Below are positions 9,504-14,791 of a stretch of DNA of 64,000 nucleotides, piece after piece. The notes beneath the pieces are model-generated. The model was not told the DNA's origin, searched no databases, and was given only the letters and a program-made list of their open reading frames with translations. Source of the DNA: Vulcanimicrobiota bacterium (GTDB taxonomy: Bacteria > Vulcanimicrobiota > Vulcanimicrobiia > Vulcanimicrobiales > Vulcanimicrobiaceae); assembly GCA_013036095.1 (NCBI GenBank), contig JAAXCW010000003.1, forward strand, positions 124,001-188,000, written 5' to 3'. The stretch's first letter is position 1; each line of letters starts with the position of its first letter. The translations under genes and the position numbers were made by a program.

Positions 9504-10790
9504 CTAATACAACCGTAAGTACGCCCGGTGCTCCCACGGATGCACTGCGCGGCGGTAGCGTTCGTATTCTTCGAGTTTAGCGTCGCGGAATGCGTGATAG
9601 ATGTGATCGCCGAGCGCGGCGCGGATAACCGGGTCGTTATCGAGTTCGCTGATTGCCTGGCGCAAGGATTTTGGAAGGGTGCCGATGCCGCGCTCGTGCC
9701 GCTCGCGTTCCGCAAGTTCGTACGTCGAACCGGTAAGCGGATCTCCGGGAAGGCGGTGCTGATCGATCCCGTCTGCGAGCGCGCCGAGTAACACGGCGAG
9801 CGAAAGATATGGATTGCCGGCCGCATCCGGGCTGCGCATCTCGAGCTGCGGCGGATCCTGACGCGGCACGCGCACTAACGCATTTGCGCTGCGTTCAGAC
9901 CAGACGGTGTAGATCGGGGCGTCCCATGCGTTGACCAAGCGTTTGTATGAATTGACGGTGGAATTGCAAACGGCGGTCAGGGCACCTGCGTGTGCGAGCA
10001 GGCCGCCGATCATATAGAGCACCTCCGGCTCCTGGTCGCTCGCGATGCGGAAGTTGACGTGCAGCCCGCTTCCCGCGCGATCTTCCAGGGGCTTCGGCAT
10101 GAACGTCGCTTCCAGTCCGCGGGCGGCGGCAACATGCTTGGCGATCGAGCGCAGCGTGAGCAGCGCGTCGGCGGCGGCCAGCGGATCGCTGTGCGGAAAA
10201 TCGATCTCGTGCTGTCCCGGACTGTGTTCGTGGTGCGAGCTCGCCACGGAAACGCCCATCGCTTGTAGCGCCGCGACGATCGCGCTGCGCGCATCTTCAC
10301 CGCGATCGTTGGCGGAGAAATCGAAATAGGAGCCGACGTCGGCCGTCTTCGTCGAGCCGTACTCGCTGTCGAGCGCTTCGAAGAGATAGAATTCGACCTC
10401 GAGCGCAACGGCCACGCCCGCCAGCGGACCTTTCGCCTCTTCGATCGCGCGCCTGAGCGTCGTGCGCGGACAGCCTTCGAAGGGCGAGCCGTCGGGCATG
10501 GCAATGTCGCAGAGCAAACGCGCTTCGGGCATCTCCGGCGTCGACCACGGGTAGAGCGCAAACGTCGAAGGATCGGGACGCAGCACCATGTCGAGCTCTT
10601 CGCCGCGCACGAAACCGTCGATCGAGCCACCGTCGAACGTTACTTTGCCTTCGAGCGCCGCTTCAAGTTCCGTCACCGGAATTGAAACGTTCTTGGCGAC
10701 GCCGAGCACGTCGACGAACGAGAGCCGCACGAATTTTACGCCGCGGTCTTTGGCCAGGCGCAAGACTTCGCGTTTATGCGGTGATTGCAT
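9504..10790 (-). CDS. glnA: Glutamine synthetase, type I
   Basis: Catalyses ATP-dependent formation of glutamine from glutamate and ammonium in the cytosol. At 428 aa it is near the short GSI-alpha form. Signatures in order: FVDVLGVAKNVSIP (N-terminal domain), PGQHEIDF, the ATP-site KPLEDRAGSGLHVNF, NSYKRLVNAWDAP and EMRSPDAAGNPYLSLAVLL. The tyrosine adenylylation site of GSI-beta enzymes is not evident. Its start lies inside the upstream PucR-type regulator gene (17-base overlap), so the two are co-expressed. A specialised gamma-glutamyl-amine ligase of the same fold cannot be excluded. Confidence 0.88.
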   Translation of the reverse strand: MQSPHKREVLRLAKDRGVKFVRLSFVDVLGVAKNVSIPVTELEAALEGKVTFDGGSIDGFVRGEELDMVLRPDPSTFALYPWSTPEMPEARLLCDIAMPDGSPFEGCPRTTLRRAIEEAKGPLAGVAVALEVEFYLFEALDSEYGSTKTADVGSYFDFSANDRGEDARSAIVAALQAMGVSVASSHHEHSPGQHEIDFPHSDPLAAADALLTLRSIAKHVAAARGLEATFMPKPLEDRAGSGLHVNFRIASDQEPEVLYMIGGLLAHAGALTAVCNSTVNSYKRLVNAWDAPIYTVWSERSANALVRVPRQDPPQLEMRSPDAAGNPYLSLAVLLGALADGIDQHRLPGDPLTGSTYELAERERHERGIGTLPKSLRQAISELDNDPVIRAALGDHIYHAFRDAKLEEYERYRRAVHPWEHRAYLRLY

Positions 10791-11922
10791 CGATTGCGAT
10801 CGCCATTCTCAGCGTGAGCTGGTCTCCAGGGTCGTCCAATTTACATCCGCAAATCTCGCCGATCTGGCGCAACCGGTAGAAGACCGTGTGCCGGTGGACG
10901 TTCAGTTCCGCCGCGGCCGTCTTGACGTTTTCGCCGACCGAAAAATACAACCGGATTGTGCGTTCCAACTCGGTCTGGTGCTTTTCGTCATAAGCGCGCA
11001 GCGGCGCGAGGGTGCGCTTCGCAAAGCCACGCATCGTATCGGCGCTGCCGCCGGAGAGCAACAGCGGGTACGCGCCGAGCTCTTCGTAGATGCCGACGCG
11101 ACCGGGGCCGTACAGCCTTCGCGAAATCGTGAGCGCCGCTTCGGCCTCCGCGAGCGAGCGGTGCACATCCAAAACGGACGCTCGCGTGCCCACTCCGCCG
11201 CTAATGCGAACGTCGAGTTCTTTCTTGAGAAGATTCCTTTGCAGCATGGCGGCTGCGGTGCGCGTGTTCGACGCATCCACCTCGCGCGAAGCCGGAAGGA
11301 AGATAACGAGCGCGCCGCGGCGTTCGAGGACGCCCGCGTCTCCTTCTGCGCCGCGAAACGCATCGAGCGCTGCCGCCCGGAAGGCGCCCGGTTCGCCGGT
11401 TTCTGTTTCGAGCGCGACTGCCACATAGTGTGTTGCAAGCGCGATACTGCGCGACGCCGCGTCGTCACGAACGGCGGCCGCGTCGTGGTAGGTTTGTGAG
11501 ACAAGCTGTTCCCAAAATGTGCGGCGCCGGCCGGGCTGCGCGCCCGACTCGCGCGCGAGCTCAACGGCGATGGCGCTTGCGGTCAAACGCGCGGCGTGTT
11601 CGAACGTATCGAGATCGCCGCTGCCGAAGATCGAAAGGCGTCCCAAGCTCGTGTCGCCGTTGACGATCGCGATCGTGCATCCCGCGTATCCGTTACGCAG
11701 TTTTTGGAACTCCGTGGTCGCATTCTGCTCGAGCAGCGGTTGCACGCTGCTGGGCACGCCGGTGCCGCCGGCGGCCGCAAGGTGCCGCCACTGTGCGTCT
11801 TCCACGAGCACGCCGACGCTCGCGCGTTTGGCAAGGTGGCCGGCCAGCGCTTTCGGGCCGCCGCCGCTCGCCGCTATCCGCGCGAGATCTTCGGCAAATG
11901 CGACCAATTCGTCGGCCGTCAT
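10774..11922 (-). CDS. PucR/CdaR-type transcriptional regulator
   Basis: A 382-aa protein ending in the PucR-family helix-turn-helix: AAAELNVHRHTVFYRLRQIG near residues 335-355. The central part (about 150-300, GGVGTRASVLDVHRSLAEAEAAL) matches the GGDEF-like domain found in CdaR/PucR regulators. The N-terminal 140 residues resemble a GAF-type sensory domain. Such proteins usually activate nearby catabolic or nitrogen genes. The gene overlaps glnA by 17 bases, which suggests it controls glutamine synthetase and itself in response to a small metabolite; that role is inference. Confidence 0.85.
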   Translation of the reverse strand: MTADELVAFAEDLARIAASGGGPKALAGHLAKRASVGVLVEDAQWRHLAAAGGTGVPSSVQPLLEQNATTEFQKLRNGYAGCTIAIVNGDTSLGRLSIFGSGDLDTFEHAARLTASAIAVELARESGAQPGRRRTFWEQLVSQTYHDAAAVRDDAASRSIALATHYVAVALETETGEPGAFRAAALDAFRGAEGDAGVLERRGALVIFLPASREVDASNTRTAAAMLQRNLLKKELDVRISGGVGTRASVLDVHRSLAEAEAALTISRRLYGPGRVGIYEELGAYPLLLSGGSADTMRGFAKRTLAPLRAYDEKHQTELERTIRLYFSVGENVKTAAAELNVHRHTVFYRLRQIGEICGCKLDDPGDQLTLRMAIAIDAITA

Positions 11923-11943: not shown

Positions 11944-13227
11944 CTAGGCTGTTCCGCCGAAGACTTGCACCACGACGTAGTAGATTGAGAGCGCGCCGAC
12001 TAGCGCGACCGTCGCCCACGCGACCGTATTGCCGAACCACCCGTTGGTGTGGCGGCCCATCACGCCGCGCTTGTTGACGATGATCAGCATGAGCACGAGC
12101 TCCGGCGGCAGCAAGATTCCCTGCGCGACTTGCGCGTAAAAGATCAGGTTCAGCAGTGGCAAGTGTGGGATGAGGACGAGTGCGCCGCCCGCGATCAAAC
12201 CGATGGCGAAAAGCGTGAAGAAGACCGGCGCTTCCGAGAACTTGCGATCGAGTGCGGCCTCGAAGCCAAAGGCTTCGCAGATGACGTAGCTCGTCGAGAG
12301 CGGCAGTACCGTCGCGGTAAAGAGTCCGGCGTTGAAGATGCCGAGCGCGAAGATGATCGACGCCGCCGCGCCCGCGAGCGGGCGCAGCGCGGCCGCAAAA
12401 TCCGCCGCCTGCAGCGGCGCGATGTGCGCTCCGTGACGGTTGGCCGTAAAGATCGTCGCCGCGTTTGCAATAATCATGAAGCCGGCAATAGCGATCGCAA
12501 GAATCGATCCGCTGATGACGTCGGCGCGCGCGAGGCCGAGCTCGCGCTCGTCGGAGCCTTTCTCGACGACCGCCGACTGTAAGAAGAATTGCATGTACGG
12601 CGATATCGTCGTGCCGATCAGGCCGACGACCATCACGAGATACGCGCGATTGTTGAAGTCGAAAGCGGGCACGAATGTGCCGTGGGCTACGGCTCCCCAG
12701 TTCGGATGCGCAAGTATAGCCGACGCGATGTAGCAAAAATAGATCAGGGAAAAACAGACGAATGCGCGGTCGATGCTCTTGCTGTTGAATCCAAATACGA
12801 GAATCAGCACGATCAGCATCGCGACCGGCACGGCGATAAAGCGCGAGATATGAAAGATCTCCGACGCGGCGGCGATGCCTGCGAATTCGGTCGCCGTGAT
12901 CACCAGGTTTATCGCAAAAAACGCGGCCATTGCGAAGAACGAGACGCGGACGCCGAAATTCTCACGGATGAGAGCCGCCAGCCCTTTTCCGGTAACGGCT
13001 GCCATGCGCGTGGCCATCTCTTGTACGACGATGAGAGCGAGCGCGAGCGGCATCAGCACCCACAGAATGCGGTAACCGAAATGCGCGCCGGCTTGCGAGT
13101 AAGTTGTAATTCCGCCGACGTCGTTTCCCGCCGACGCCGTGATGAATCCCGGCCCCAGGACTGCCAGGAGCAGAACGAGGCTTCGCCAGCGCCAGCGTCT
13201 GCGCTTGCGAATCACGTCGGGCGCCAC
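11944..13227 (-). CDS. NRAMP-related divalent metal transporter (probable Mg2+ carrier)
   Basis: A 427-aa protein with about 11 membrane helices of the NRAMP/SLC11 fold. In helix 1 the family DPGN is DVGG (AGNDVGGITTYS): the metal-binding Asp stays, the Asn is lost. In helix 6 the family MPH is SPY (GTTISPYMQFF), so the methionine that selects soft transition metals is absent. Such changes are known from NRAMP-related Mg2+ transporters. It starts with GTG three bases after the stop of a PRC/MgtE_N/CBS protein and sits behind an M-box riboswitch, which supports Mg2+ as substrate; transport itself is not shown. Confidence 0.85.
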   Translation of the reverse strand: MAPDVIRKRRRWRWRSLVLLLAVLGPGFITASAGNDVGGITTYSQAGAHFGYRILWVLMPLALALIVVQEMATRMAAVTGKGLAALIRENFGVRVSFFAMAAFFAINLVITATEFAGIAAASEIFHISRFIAVPVAMLIVLILVFGFNSKSIDRAFVCFSLIYFCYIASAILAHPNWGAVAHGTFVPAFDFNNRAYLVMVVGLIGTTISPYMQFFLQSAVVEKGSDERELGLARADVISGSILAIAIAGFMIIANAATIFTANRHGAHIAPLQAADFAAALRPLAGAAASIIFALGIFNAGLFTATVLPLSTSYVICEAFGFEAALDRKFSEAPVFFTLFAIGLIAGGALVLIPHLPLLNLIFYAQVAQGILLPPELVLMLIIVNKRGVMGRHTNGWFGNTVAWATVALVGALSIYYVVVQVFGGTA

Positions 13228-13230
13228 GGG

Positions 13231-14526
13231 CTACCCCTTTACCGCACGGCTCGTGCGCCGCGGCGGAGTGATGCGCGGAAGTTCTTTGGCAAGATCCTCC
13301 GGCATGATTGCGTCGATCGCGTCGTCCACCGTGACGATGCCGAGCATGATTCCATCGGGATCGACGACCGGCACCGCGAGCAGATCGTAGCGCGCGATGG
13401 TTGCCGCGACGTCACGGGAGTGCATCTCGGGGGGAACCGTTACGACGTCGTCTTCCATGACGCGTTCGATGACTTCATCCTGCGGCGCGAGCAAGAGCGC
13501 CCGCAGCGTCAGCACGCCCAGCAGCCGCTCGTCCTTATCGACGACGTACAGATAATAGATGAATTCGGACTCCGGAGCGATCTCGCGAATCTTGTGAATA
13601 GTCTGCTCGGCTGTGCGGTGCGGAAAGATCCAGACGAAATCGGTCGTCATCAATCCGCCGGCCGTGTCGTCCTCGTATTTGACGAGTTCGCGCAGCTCGC
13701 CGGCCGTGGACTGATTCATCTCAGCGAGCAATTCGGTTTGCTGATCCTCGGGCAGGTCTCCTAAGAGATCGGCCGCGTCGTCCGAATCCATCTCCTCGAT
13801 AATGTCGGCGGCGCGCTCCCGTCCGATGTCGTCGATGATCGCGCGCTGCTTCCCGGGCTCGAGATGTTCGAGCGCGTCCGCCGCGGTCTCGTCGTCGAGC
13901 GAATAAATAACAGCCGCGGCTTCGCGCGCTGAGAGATCGCTGATGACTTCGGCCAGTTCGCTCGGGTGAAGCCGCTTCAGTTTACTTTCTTTGACCGCGA
14001 GCTGAATCTGGGACGGATTTTTCTCGCGAATCGGCGCGACCGAATCCCATGCGATCATCGCGCGCGGCACGCGCCGGTAAACCCATGGCGCTAACCGTTT
14101 GCCGAAACCTCGTAAACCCAAGCGCCGCAGCAACCCGCTGACGCCGACGTCGGCGGCGACGACCCGCAGCTTTCCTCCCGTGTTGGCAATCTCGATGTCG
14201 TTGATGCGCACGACTTTGCGGCCATCAACGTCGACGATCTGCTTGTCGAGCAAATCCAAGACGAGGTAAAGCGCCTCTTCATCCGGCGGCGCGGCGACTT
14301 TGGGCGCGGTGTTGAGCGCGACGGCTCCATCCGCATCGACGTCGGAAACCGTATCCATCGGTGCGAAGCGCGGACCTTGGCTGGTCTTGATAATTAGCCC
14401 GTCAACTTCCGGAAAGGTTTGGTCGGGATTGTTGACCAGAAAGTCGGTGACTTTGCCAATCGGCAATTCGTTGACCGTCGCACGCCGTCCGACGAGCTCG
14501 GAGATAAATCCATCCTGAAACGCCAT
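13231..14526 (-). CDS. Soluble PRC-barrel/MgtE N-domain/CBS protein (detached Mg2+ sensor)
   Basis: 431 aa from the ATG at 14526, which has a strong GGGAGGT Shine-Dalgarno; the frame is open further up but runs into the riboswitch. Order of parts: two PRC-barrel-like units (about 1-75 and 90-150), an MgtE N-domain of acidic helical repeats (about 175-290, e.g. LHPSELAEVISDLSAREAAA), and a CBS pair (about 300-420, TAGGLMTTDFVW). These are the cytosolic Mg2+-sensing parts of the MgtE channel, but there is no membrane domain. The partner is presumably the NRAMP-like transporter encoded three bases downstream. Confidence 0.88.
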   Translation of the reverse strand: MAFQDGFISELVGRRATVNELPIGKVTDFLVNNPDQTFPEVDGLIIKTSQGPRFAPMDTVSDVDADGAVALNTAPKVAAPPDEEALYLVLDLLDKQIVDVDGRKVVRINDIEIANTGGKLRVVAADVGVSGLLRRLGLRGFGKRLAPWVYRRVPRAMIAWDSVAPIREKNPSQIQLAVKESKLKRLHPSELAEVISDLSAREAAAVIYSLDDETAADALEHLEPGKQRAIIDDIGRERAADIIEEMDSDDAADLLGDLPEDQQTELLAEMNQSTAGELRELVKYEDDTAGGLMTTDFVWIFPHRTAEQTIHKIREIAPESEFIYYLYVVDKDERLLGVLTLRALLLAPQDEVIERVMEDDVVTVPPEMHSRDVAATIARYDLLAVPVVDPDGIMLGIVTVDDAIDAIMPEDLAKELPRITPPRRTSRAVKG

Positions 14527-14550
14527 GTCGCACCTCCCTTCCCCGCATAA

Positions 14551-14581
14551 TAAAAACCGGTTCGCTGGGCGGCGACCGGTC
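14551..14581 (-). terminator. Riboswitch-controlled intrinsic terminator
   Basis: Read on the minus strand: ACCGGTCGC, a short loop, GCG-A-ACCGGT, then TTTTTATT. This is a 9-bp GC-rich stem with one bulged A followed by a U-tract. It ends about 25 bases before the ATG of the MgtE-like gene, just ahead of its Shine-Dalgarno, where a transcription-attenuating M-box expression platform would act. Confidence 0.85.
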
Positions 14582-14639
14582 GTGGCGTGGAACGGCGAGT
14601 GCGTTCTATACCCCAATCGCGTCTGCTTTGGCACCACGC

Positions 14640-14779
14640 GCCGTAAAGCCCCACAGGGGCTTAGCCGCATTAGACGACGCCTTAGGTCGGCGAAGTCTGG
14701 TCTACCCGCTTGGCGTCTCTCGACGTTTCCGGGCAGCGGCCTGTGTTTCGCGTGGACGCCTCACCTAGCGAGGTATCCT
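14640..14779 (-). ncRNA. M-box (ykoK-type) Mg2+ riboswitch aptamer
   Basis: The minus strand carries the conserved M-box blocks in order: CGCTAGGTGAGGC (14770-14758), GCTGCCCGGAAACGTCGAGA followed by GACGCCAA (14735-14709), then GACCTAAGGCG and TAATGCGGCTAAG, matching CGUUAGGUGAGGC, GCUGCCC...GACGCCAA, GACAUAAGG and UAAUGCAGCUGG of the Bacillus mgtE leader. M-boxes fold at high Mg2+ and switch expression off. It precedes the MgtE-like sensor and NRAMP-like transporter genes. Exact aptamer borders are estimated. Confidence 0.92.
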
Positions 14780-14785
14780 CATCTA

Positions 14786-14791
14786 AGTATA
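14786..14791 (-). promoter_or_regulatory. Probable -10 box for the M-box leader
   Basis: TATACT on the minus strand, about seven bases before the first nucleotides of the aptamer. No good -35 hexamer is seen at 17 bases, so this is a tentative assignment based on position. Confidence 0.4.

Follow-up and report, generated by a model that had tools for sequence, protein, structure and literature searches.

A gene for a soluble protein resembling the cytosolic part of the Mg2+ channel MgtE (the sensor) stands before a gene for an NRAMP-related carrier, both behind an M-box riboswitch; does the sensor act as a brake on the carrier? The locus lies in a window of 64,000 nucleotides, positions 124,001 to 188,000 of contig JAAXCW010000003.1 of a Vulcanimicrobiota bacterium (GCA_013036095.1; 2.58 Mb, 19 contigs, 97.0% complete, 6.6% contamination). 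The whole system was located inside the span 11944-14791, as given by a first-pass annotation of the window. In the present study, we found that the M-box almost certainly controls the sensor-carrier pair. The whole explanation, an M-box-attenuated Mg2+-uptake operon with the sensor as a brake in trans, was judged evenly poised between right and wrong, and direct inhibition of the carrier by the sensor is a possibility that we hold with some doubt. Previously, Shin et al. (2014) reported M-boxes ahead of NRAMP-related genes, which they named NrmT, and a gene resembling the MgtE cytosolic domain adjoins most members of the NrmT group; a cytoplasmic feedback or chaperone role of the MgtE-like gene was offered there as speculation (PMC4072509). 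Both the arrangement and the feedback idea have thus been in print since 2014, and the operon of the window is a further example.

The M-box and the U-tract terminator that had been proposed for the leader were both recovered. The leader matched the covariance model RF00380 at model positions 1-169 of 169, above the gathering score of 44 (cmscan), and the M-box at 14779-14605 was the sole RF00380 match found in this genome. The hairpin at 14580-14556 was followed by a U-tract, with a folding energy of -12.9 kcal/mol. This terminator, which has a bulged stem, was missing from the output of a simple consensus scanner, which also reported no sigma-70-like promoter between 9250 and 15000. The terminators of 39 sensor leaders with an M-box and of 70 others with enough sequence were then compared. 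A hairpin with a T-tract below -8 kcal/mol was present in 32/39 of the former vs 12/70 of the latter, and the mean best terminator energy of the M-box leaders was -16.3 kcal/mol vs -0.9 kcal/mol for letter-shuffled ones. Over 32 leaders, pairing of the aptamer P1 3' strand with the terminator arm gave -10.2 kcal/mol for a leader's own strands vs -9.16 kcal/mol for swapped strands, and 3 of 2000 permutations were as low, in a test of related leaders with kinship left in. The antiterminator pairing was only modestly better than the swapped one, and it was weak in several genomes (e.g., G028, G134, and G103). The pairing of the P1 strand with the terminator arm is the predicted layout of a Mg2+-off switch. 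At high cell Mg2+, the aptamer would fold, P1 would close, and the terminator would form, turning the operon off; at low Mg2+, the P1 3' strand would capture the terminator arm, and transcription would continue into the operon.

A different design was observed in five terminator-free leaders (L014, L015, L018, L055, and L076; genomes G083, G112, G116, G055, and G061), which represent 5/7 of the terminator-free M-box sensor leaders. Their aptamers end at most 10 nucleotides from the sensor start codon, and a Shine-Dalgarno-like GGAGG or GGGG stretch lies at the P1 3' strand. Because of this spacing and this stretch, the sequences suggest translational control, and the five leaders are candidate M-boxes of simple design.

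The sensor matched the Pfam domain MgtE_N (E 1.6e-25) and two CBS stretches. In the Pfam search, no membrane domain was found in it, and the MgtE transmembrane domain PF01769 was absent. These results bore out the earlier description of a detached, soluble MgtE-type protein. Of the two PRC domains proposed for its N-terminal part, one was identified by Pfam (residues 91-128, E 8e-5); the first was not matched by name, and the sole basis for a second PRC-like unit is the beta strands of residues 5-71 in an AlphaFold2 model. This model was built with 50 aligned rows (mean predicted local distance difference test score, pLDDT, 87.2; predicted template modelling score 0.56), and a single-sequence structure with a mean pLDDT of 45.5 was discarded. 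Foldseek ranked MgtE first for the model (2zy9, E 2.6e-21; 2yvy, E 4e-21), with a TM-score of 0.85 on the length of 2yvy.

The Mg2+-ligand acids at sites Mg4-Mg7 of MgtE are E59, D91, D95, D226, D247, and D250, and Mg2+ bound at these N/CBS sites favours the closed state (PMC5882242). The numbering is that of the cited paper, with a chain offset of 3 deduced in our analysis. According to a HMMER alignment with Thermus thermophilus MgtE, the sensor equivalents of Mg4-Mg7 are D249 with D402, D381 with D405, D253, and D217, and all six ligand positions are acidic in the window sensor. Conservation was evaluated in 113 sensor rows from the phylum, among which the window protein occurs three times and G053 twice, and in 51 cross-phylum rows, 4 of which (L174-L177) duplicate loci of the phylum set. 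The six positions, in the order above, were acidic in 106, 113, 113, 108, 110, and 113 of the 113 phylum rows, and over all sensors the mean acidic share was 89% at the ligand positions vs 49% at the 45 remaining acidic positions within the MgtE stretch. At the level of sequence, the sensor was shown to keep the putative Mg2+-sensing part of MgtE, and the protein quite likely binds Mg2+. It thus resembles the cytosolic domain of T. thermophilus MgtE (2yvy, 2zy9) in its N and CBS domains and Mg4-Mg7 ligand acids, and differs from that channel in having no membrane part, an added PRC part, and changes at 3/6 ATP-contact residues. The ATP site of MgtE comprises six residues, five side chains and V207 (PMC5529423); F227, D188, and N203 are changed in the sensor, and Y170, R187, and V207 are kept. 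The plug helix of MgtE is not covered by the alignment, which stops at E255, and the sensor may lack it; an ungapped extension places A413 and K414 at the plug-helix acids E258/D259, with E410-D411 nearby.

The carrier matched the Pfam family Nramp (PF01566, E 1.2e-85), in agreement with the proposed NRAMP fold. Its closest solved relative by sequence was EleNRMT of Eggerthella lenta (7qia; Ramanadane et al. 2022, PMC8806188), with 324 bits vs 87 bits for the runner-up, and this similarity marked it as NRMT-like. The replacements read earlier in its metal site, DVGG for DPGN and SPY for MPH, were both confirmed. The NRMT signature is DxxG-TxxA/T, and the loss of histidines has been tied to missing proton coupling (PMC8806188). 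The DxxG of the carrier matches this signature, and its helix-6 motif is TxxS rather than TxxA/T. The two helix-6b histidines of proton-coupled NRAMPs are absent, with Y211 and L216 in their place; the helix 3 glutamate (E114) is kept, and the soft methionine ligand is absent. EleNRMT and the carrier are therefore alike in the helix 1 DxxG, the helix 6 threonine, the lack of helix-6 histidines, and the helix 3 glutamate, and differ at Ser209 for Ala and at Tyr for Trp after the proline. Judging by its metal site and by the loss of the histidines, the carrier is probably not proton-coupled. These features point to an NRMT-type NRAMP-fold importer of hydrated Mg2+, and Mg2+ is likely to be a main substrate. 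In a tree built with FastTree only, the node joining the carrier and EleNRMT had a support of 44, and EleNRMT, DraNramp, the second NRAMP of this genome, and some others stood on long branches. Within family f3, six carriers from M-box genomes read NDVGG, and four from M-box-free genomes read NDAGG or NDAAG. The metal-site variant was rejected as a mark of M-box control because the valine changes only twice on the tree, leaving almost no informative independent pairs.

The first-pass annotation had named conservation of the pair in related genomes as a test of its reading. Sensor and carrier places were taken from the matches listed, and at least 123 sensor places and at least 121 carrier places were kept. 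Full MgtE channels and short pieces (e.g., a contig-edge piece in G126; G121) were dropped from the former, and from the latter second-tier homologues with identities near 33-37%, of which G017, G039, and G045 alone were retained. Among these matches, 74 of the 91 near-complete phylum genomes (at least 90% complete) had both genes, 15 had neither, none had the carrier only, and 2 had the sensor only (Fisher p 2.5e-15, with kinship left in). In the two sensor-only genomes (G095 and G098), the carrier is cut by a contig end (L118, L017). These results indicated that the pair is conserved. The nearest named locus, L174, carried the same genes (89% identity). Four class members (G040, G064, G087, and G073) had neither sensor nor carrier among the matches listed, and only second-tier NRAMP homologues were present.

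The position of the M-box was also examined. Among 123 M-boxes, 39 stood before sensor plus carrier, 40 before the carrier alone, 9 before the sensor alone, and 35 elsewhere. In the class, 40/48 unlinked carriers had their own M-box, and after unlinking the M-box stays with the carrier more than with the sensor. Both unlinked genes of G054 had their own M-box (123.0 and 138.7 bits). Weak, shortened M-boxes of 33-45 bits were observed before the sensor in G019, G088, and G094 (L011, L010, L012), where the carrier-side M-box is strong (the G094 carrier being a contig-cut piece, L166); these are perhaps decaying riboswitches.

Beyond the phylum, we considered the best 80 of at least 585 confirmed carrier loci in the GTDB genome set, which were found through the carrier and are silent on sensors without carriers. 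In 46 of these 80 loci, the carrier was preceded by a sensor at a distance of at most 600 nucleotides; a sensor lay anywhere in the locus in 53, and an M-box was present in 14. The record titles named Acidobacteria, Firmicutes, Deltaproteobacteria, Nitrospirae, Omnitrophota, Anaerolineales, Bacteroidetes, and others.

Regarding other Mg2+ transporters, profile searches of this genome gave no match to CorA, MgtE-channel, or MgtA models. In the 116 genomes of the class, CorA was found in 17, an MgtE channel above the cut-off in none (with three sub-threshold matches), and an M-box above the cut-off in 95. The genome holds two NRAMP homologues and one CNNM-family protein (G000:C8:116561-117091, L254); the second NRAMP homologue (G000:C4:119803-120900, L152) has a DxxG-TxxT site and is NRMT-like.

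Taken with the leader and the carrier, the preferred mechanism is as follows. Like MgtE itself, the detached module would bind Mg2+ between the N domain and the CBS domains, and the Mg2+-loaded sensor would lower carrier activity in trans at high Mg2+. Several results weigh against this reading. First, only 7/50 unlinked sensors had an M-box, and in independent pairs on the tree no significant tie was found between M-box and sensor adjacency (2.4 same, 0.3 opposite, 11.2 no difference; median p 0.5). Second, a sensor-carrier fusion was found in none of the best 80 cross-phylum loci, so Rosetta-stone support is lacking; sensor frames of 894 and 878 amino acids were rejected as fusions, being open merely through chance upstream sequence. 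Third, ligand positions D226 and D250 were weaker outside the phylum (acidic in 12/51 and 28/51). Fourth, NrmT proteins rescued Bacillus subtilis without the sensor gene, and the Acidobacterium capsulatum carrier, which has the sensor gene and no M-box, acted mainly on Mn2+ and rescued no further when the MgtE-like gene of that species was co-expressed (PMC4072509). The presence of a sensor gene is therefore no proof that a carrier is specific for Mg2+. Fifth, Mg2+ may have other routes besides the operon, because the genome holds the second NRMT-like homologue and the CNNM protein, and we make no single-importer claim. Finally, in 28 class loci (f1, 5 + 16; f3, 3 + 4) among 80 sensor loci with a downstream view of about 2.8 kb or less, a same-strand PucR gene follows the sensor, with or without glutamine synthetase, and the carrier is absent there.

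These PucR-linked loci, the rarity of M-boxes at unlinked sensors, and the single published co-expression test, in which the sensor gene had no effect, also speak for another explanation: the sensor is not a carrier gate but either a Mg2+ buffer or a Mg2+-responsive partner of the neighbouring PucR and of glutamine synthetase, which is a Mg2+ enzyme, and its linkage to the carrier serves co-expression only. We considered this improbable. Neither PucR nor glutamine synthetase was found in any of 13 out-of-class sensor loci (one of which, L103, is a full MgtE channel), yet the sensor is linked to the carrier in many phyla, and neither gene was found without the other in the near-complete genomes when the two contig-cut carriers are counted. 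A sensor that activates or stabilises the carrier, as an assembly partner or low-Mg2+ activator, would agree with its first place in the operon and its joint retention with the carrier across the genomes that were compared. Transport by the published relatives in B. subtilis without it, and the closed state favoured by Mg2+ at the equivalent MgtE sites, make this distinctly improbable. Cellular transport of Mn2+ or some other transition metal by the carrier, with an M-box answering to Mn2+ too, would suit the TxxS motif, the carriage of Mn2+ by EleNRMT (PMC8806188), and the preference of the A. capsulatum relative, but is very improbable given the M-box in most genomes of the class, the missing match to CorA, MgtE-channel, or MgtA models in this genome, and the absent methionine ligand.

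Should the sensor be a brake on the carrier, it would follow that a regulatory domain has moved from one transporter fold to an unrelated one and that a single transcript controls the uptake of Mg2+ at both the RNA and the protein level. The lack of a CorA, MgtE-channel, or MgtA match in this genome and the both-or-neither pattern make the speculation of 2014 directly testable. A wider picture, which we regard as rather unlikely, would have the Mg2+-operated gating domain of MgtE act as a separate protein that brakes an unrelated NRAMP-fold carrier without proton coupling, the both-or-neither pair serve as a main Mg2+ intake in a class without MgtE channels, and an M-box regulon in relatives add a second NRAMP-related carrier and exported-looking proteins, maybe passing Mg2+ across the outer membrane.

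The operon was compared with known systems. The NrmT operons of Shin et al. (Clostridium acetobutylicum Ca_c0685 and Ca_c3329; A. capsulatum Acp2976-2977) have the same MgtE-cytosolic-like gene and NRAMP-related carrier, and, except for A. capsulatum, the M-box. The sensor is one gene in the window and two genes in C. acetobutylicum, and the window sensor has a PRC domain, which Shin et al. do not name (PMC4072509). The window further differs in the DVGG/TTIS carrier site, a class without MgtE channels, and a possible run-on into PucR and glutamine synthetase. By title and abstract start, no later test of the MgtE-like gene was found in the open-licence literature, a scope outside which most subscription papers fall. 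The M-box of Mycobacterium tuberculosis pe20 likewise precedes genes tied to Mg2+ uptake, but it serves other proteins and is translational and Rho-dependent (PMC12810186), whereas the window has an intrinsic terminator.

The features of the locus are collected in the table below. Because PucR starts so close to the carrier end and overlaps the following gene, the M-box transcript may reach both downstream genes. In this stretch of two genes (9504-11922), a glutamine synthetase may thus come under a Mg2+ riboswitch.

Features of the M-box operon and its downstream genes (window coordinates)
Feature	Position	Strand	Evidence
M-box (Mg2+) riboswitch aptamer, RF00380, full length	14605..14779	-	cmscan 130.2 bits, E 5.8e-29
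Aptamer P1 3' strand, predicted antiterminator strand	14610..14620	-	-12.3 kcal/mol duplex with terminator 5' arm
Intrinsic terminator (hairpin 14580-14556 and U-tract)	14549..14580	-	RNAfold -12.9 kcal/mol
Shine-Dalgarno-like AAGGGAGG ahead of ATG 14526	14533..14540	-	sequence
Sensor gene, 431 amino acids, ATG 14526: beta-rich N-terminus, PRC, MgtE_N, CBS pair	13231..14526	-	
Sensor MgtE_N and CBS module with Mg2+-ligand equivalents D217, D249, D253, D381, D402, D405	13303..13971	-	
NRAMP-related (NRMT-like) carrier gene, 427 amino acids, GTG start	11944..13227	-	
Carrier transmembrane helix 1 metal-site motif D36-V-G-G39 (DxxG)	13111..13122	-	
Carrier transmembrane helix 6 metal-site motif T206-T-I-S209 (TxxS; NRMT signature TxxA/T)	12601..12612	-	
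PucR-type helix-turn-helix regulator gene, start 21 nucleotides past carrier; possibly on same transcript	10774..11922	-	
Glutamine synthetase gene overlapping PucR gene end; possibly on same transcript	9504..10790	-	

In relatives, new Mg2+-related candidates of the phylum can be recognised by the M-boxes ahead of them. Among the 35 other M-boxes, 13 stood before a second NRAMP-related type (including L119, partial, 36% identical), 8 before an exported-looking protein alone, and 3 before a contig-cut NrmT; 11 were unassigned, three of them on stretches of about 300 nucleotides and three being weak matches, with one stretch being both. The second NRAMP-related type (L129:1062-2711, L120, L121, L155-L157, L159-L162, L165) formed one clade of 11 rows in the FastTree tree, with an N-terminal extension and mostly DNDAGAF and TTIAPW or TTVAPW motifs (a DxxA-TxxA site). 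The exported-looking family, of about 620 amino acids (L131:712-2559, L114:612-2654, L123, L124, L128, L158, L168, L204:5298-7142), has a signal-peptide-like N-terminus with a Pro/Ser linker, as judged by eye in A2 and not by a predictor. It matched nothing in Pfam or NCBIfam at E 0.1, had no Protein Data Bank match at E 1 in a profile search, and showed no beta-barrel signal by hydropathy moments. Members were found in 57/148 genomes (four by weak matches), this genome having none. At 55 of the 64 matched places, which were used for counting, 28 had an M-box at most 5 kb upstream (27) or a same-strand NrmT within 3 kb (14), and 27 had neither; the chance of an M-box near such a gene was roughly estimated at 0.001 per place. 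In G099, the gene directly follows M-box, sensor, and carrier. Our guess is that the family could be a Mg2+ port through the outer membrane. A strong M-box (135 bits) was also observed in G087 (L117:141-1547), a genome in which neither sensor nor NrmT was found, and the protein after it has 282 amino acids and a sub-threshold match to Phenol_MetA_deg.

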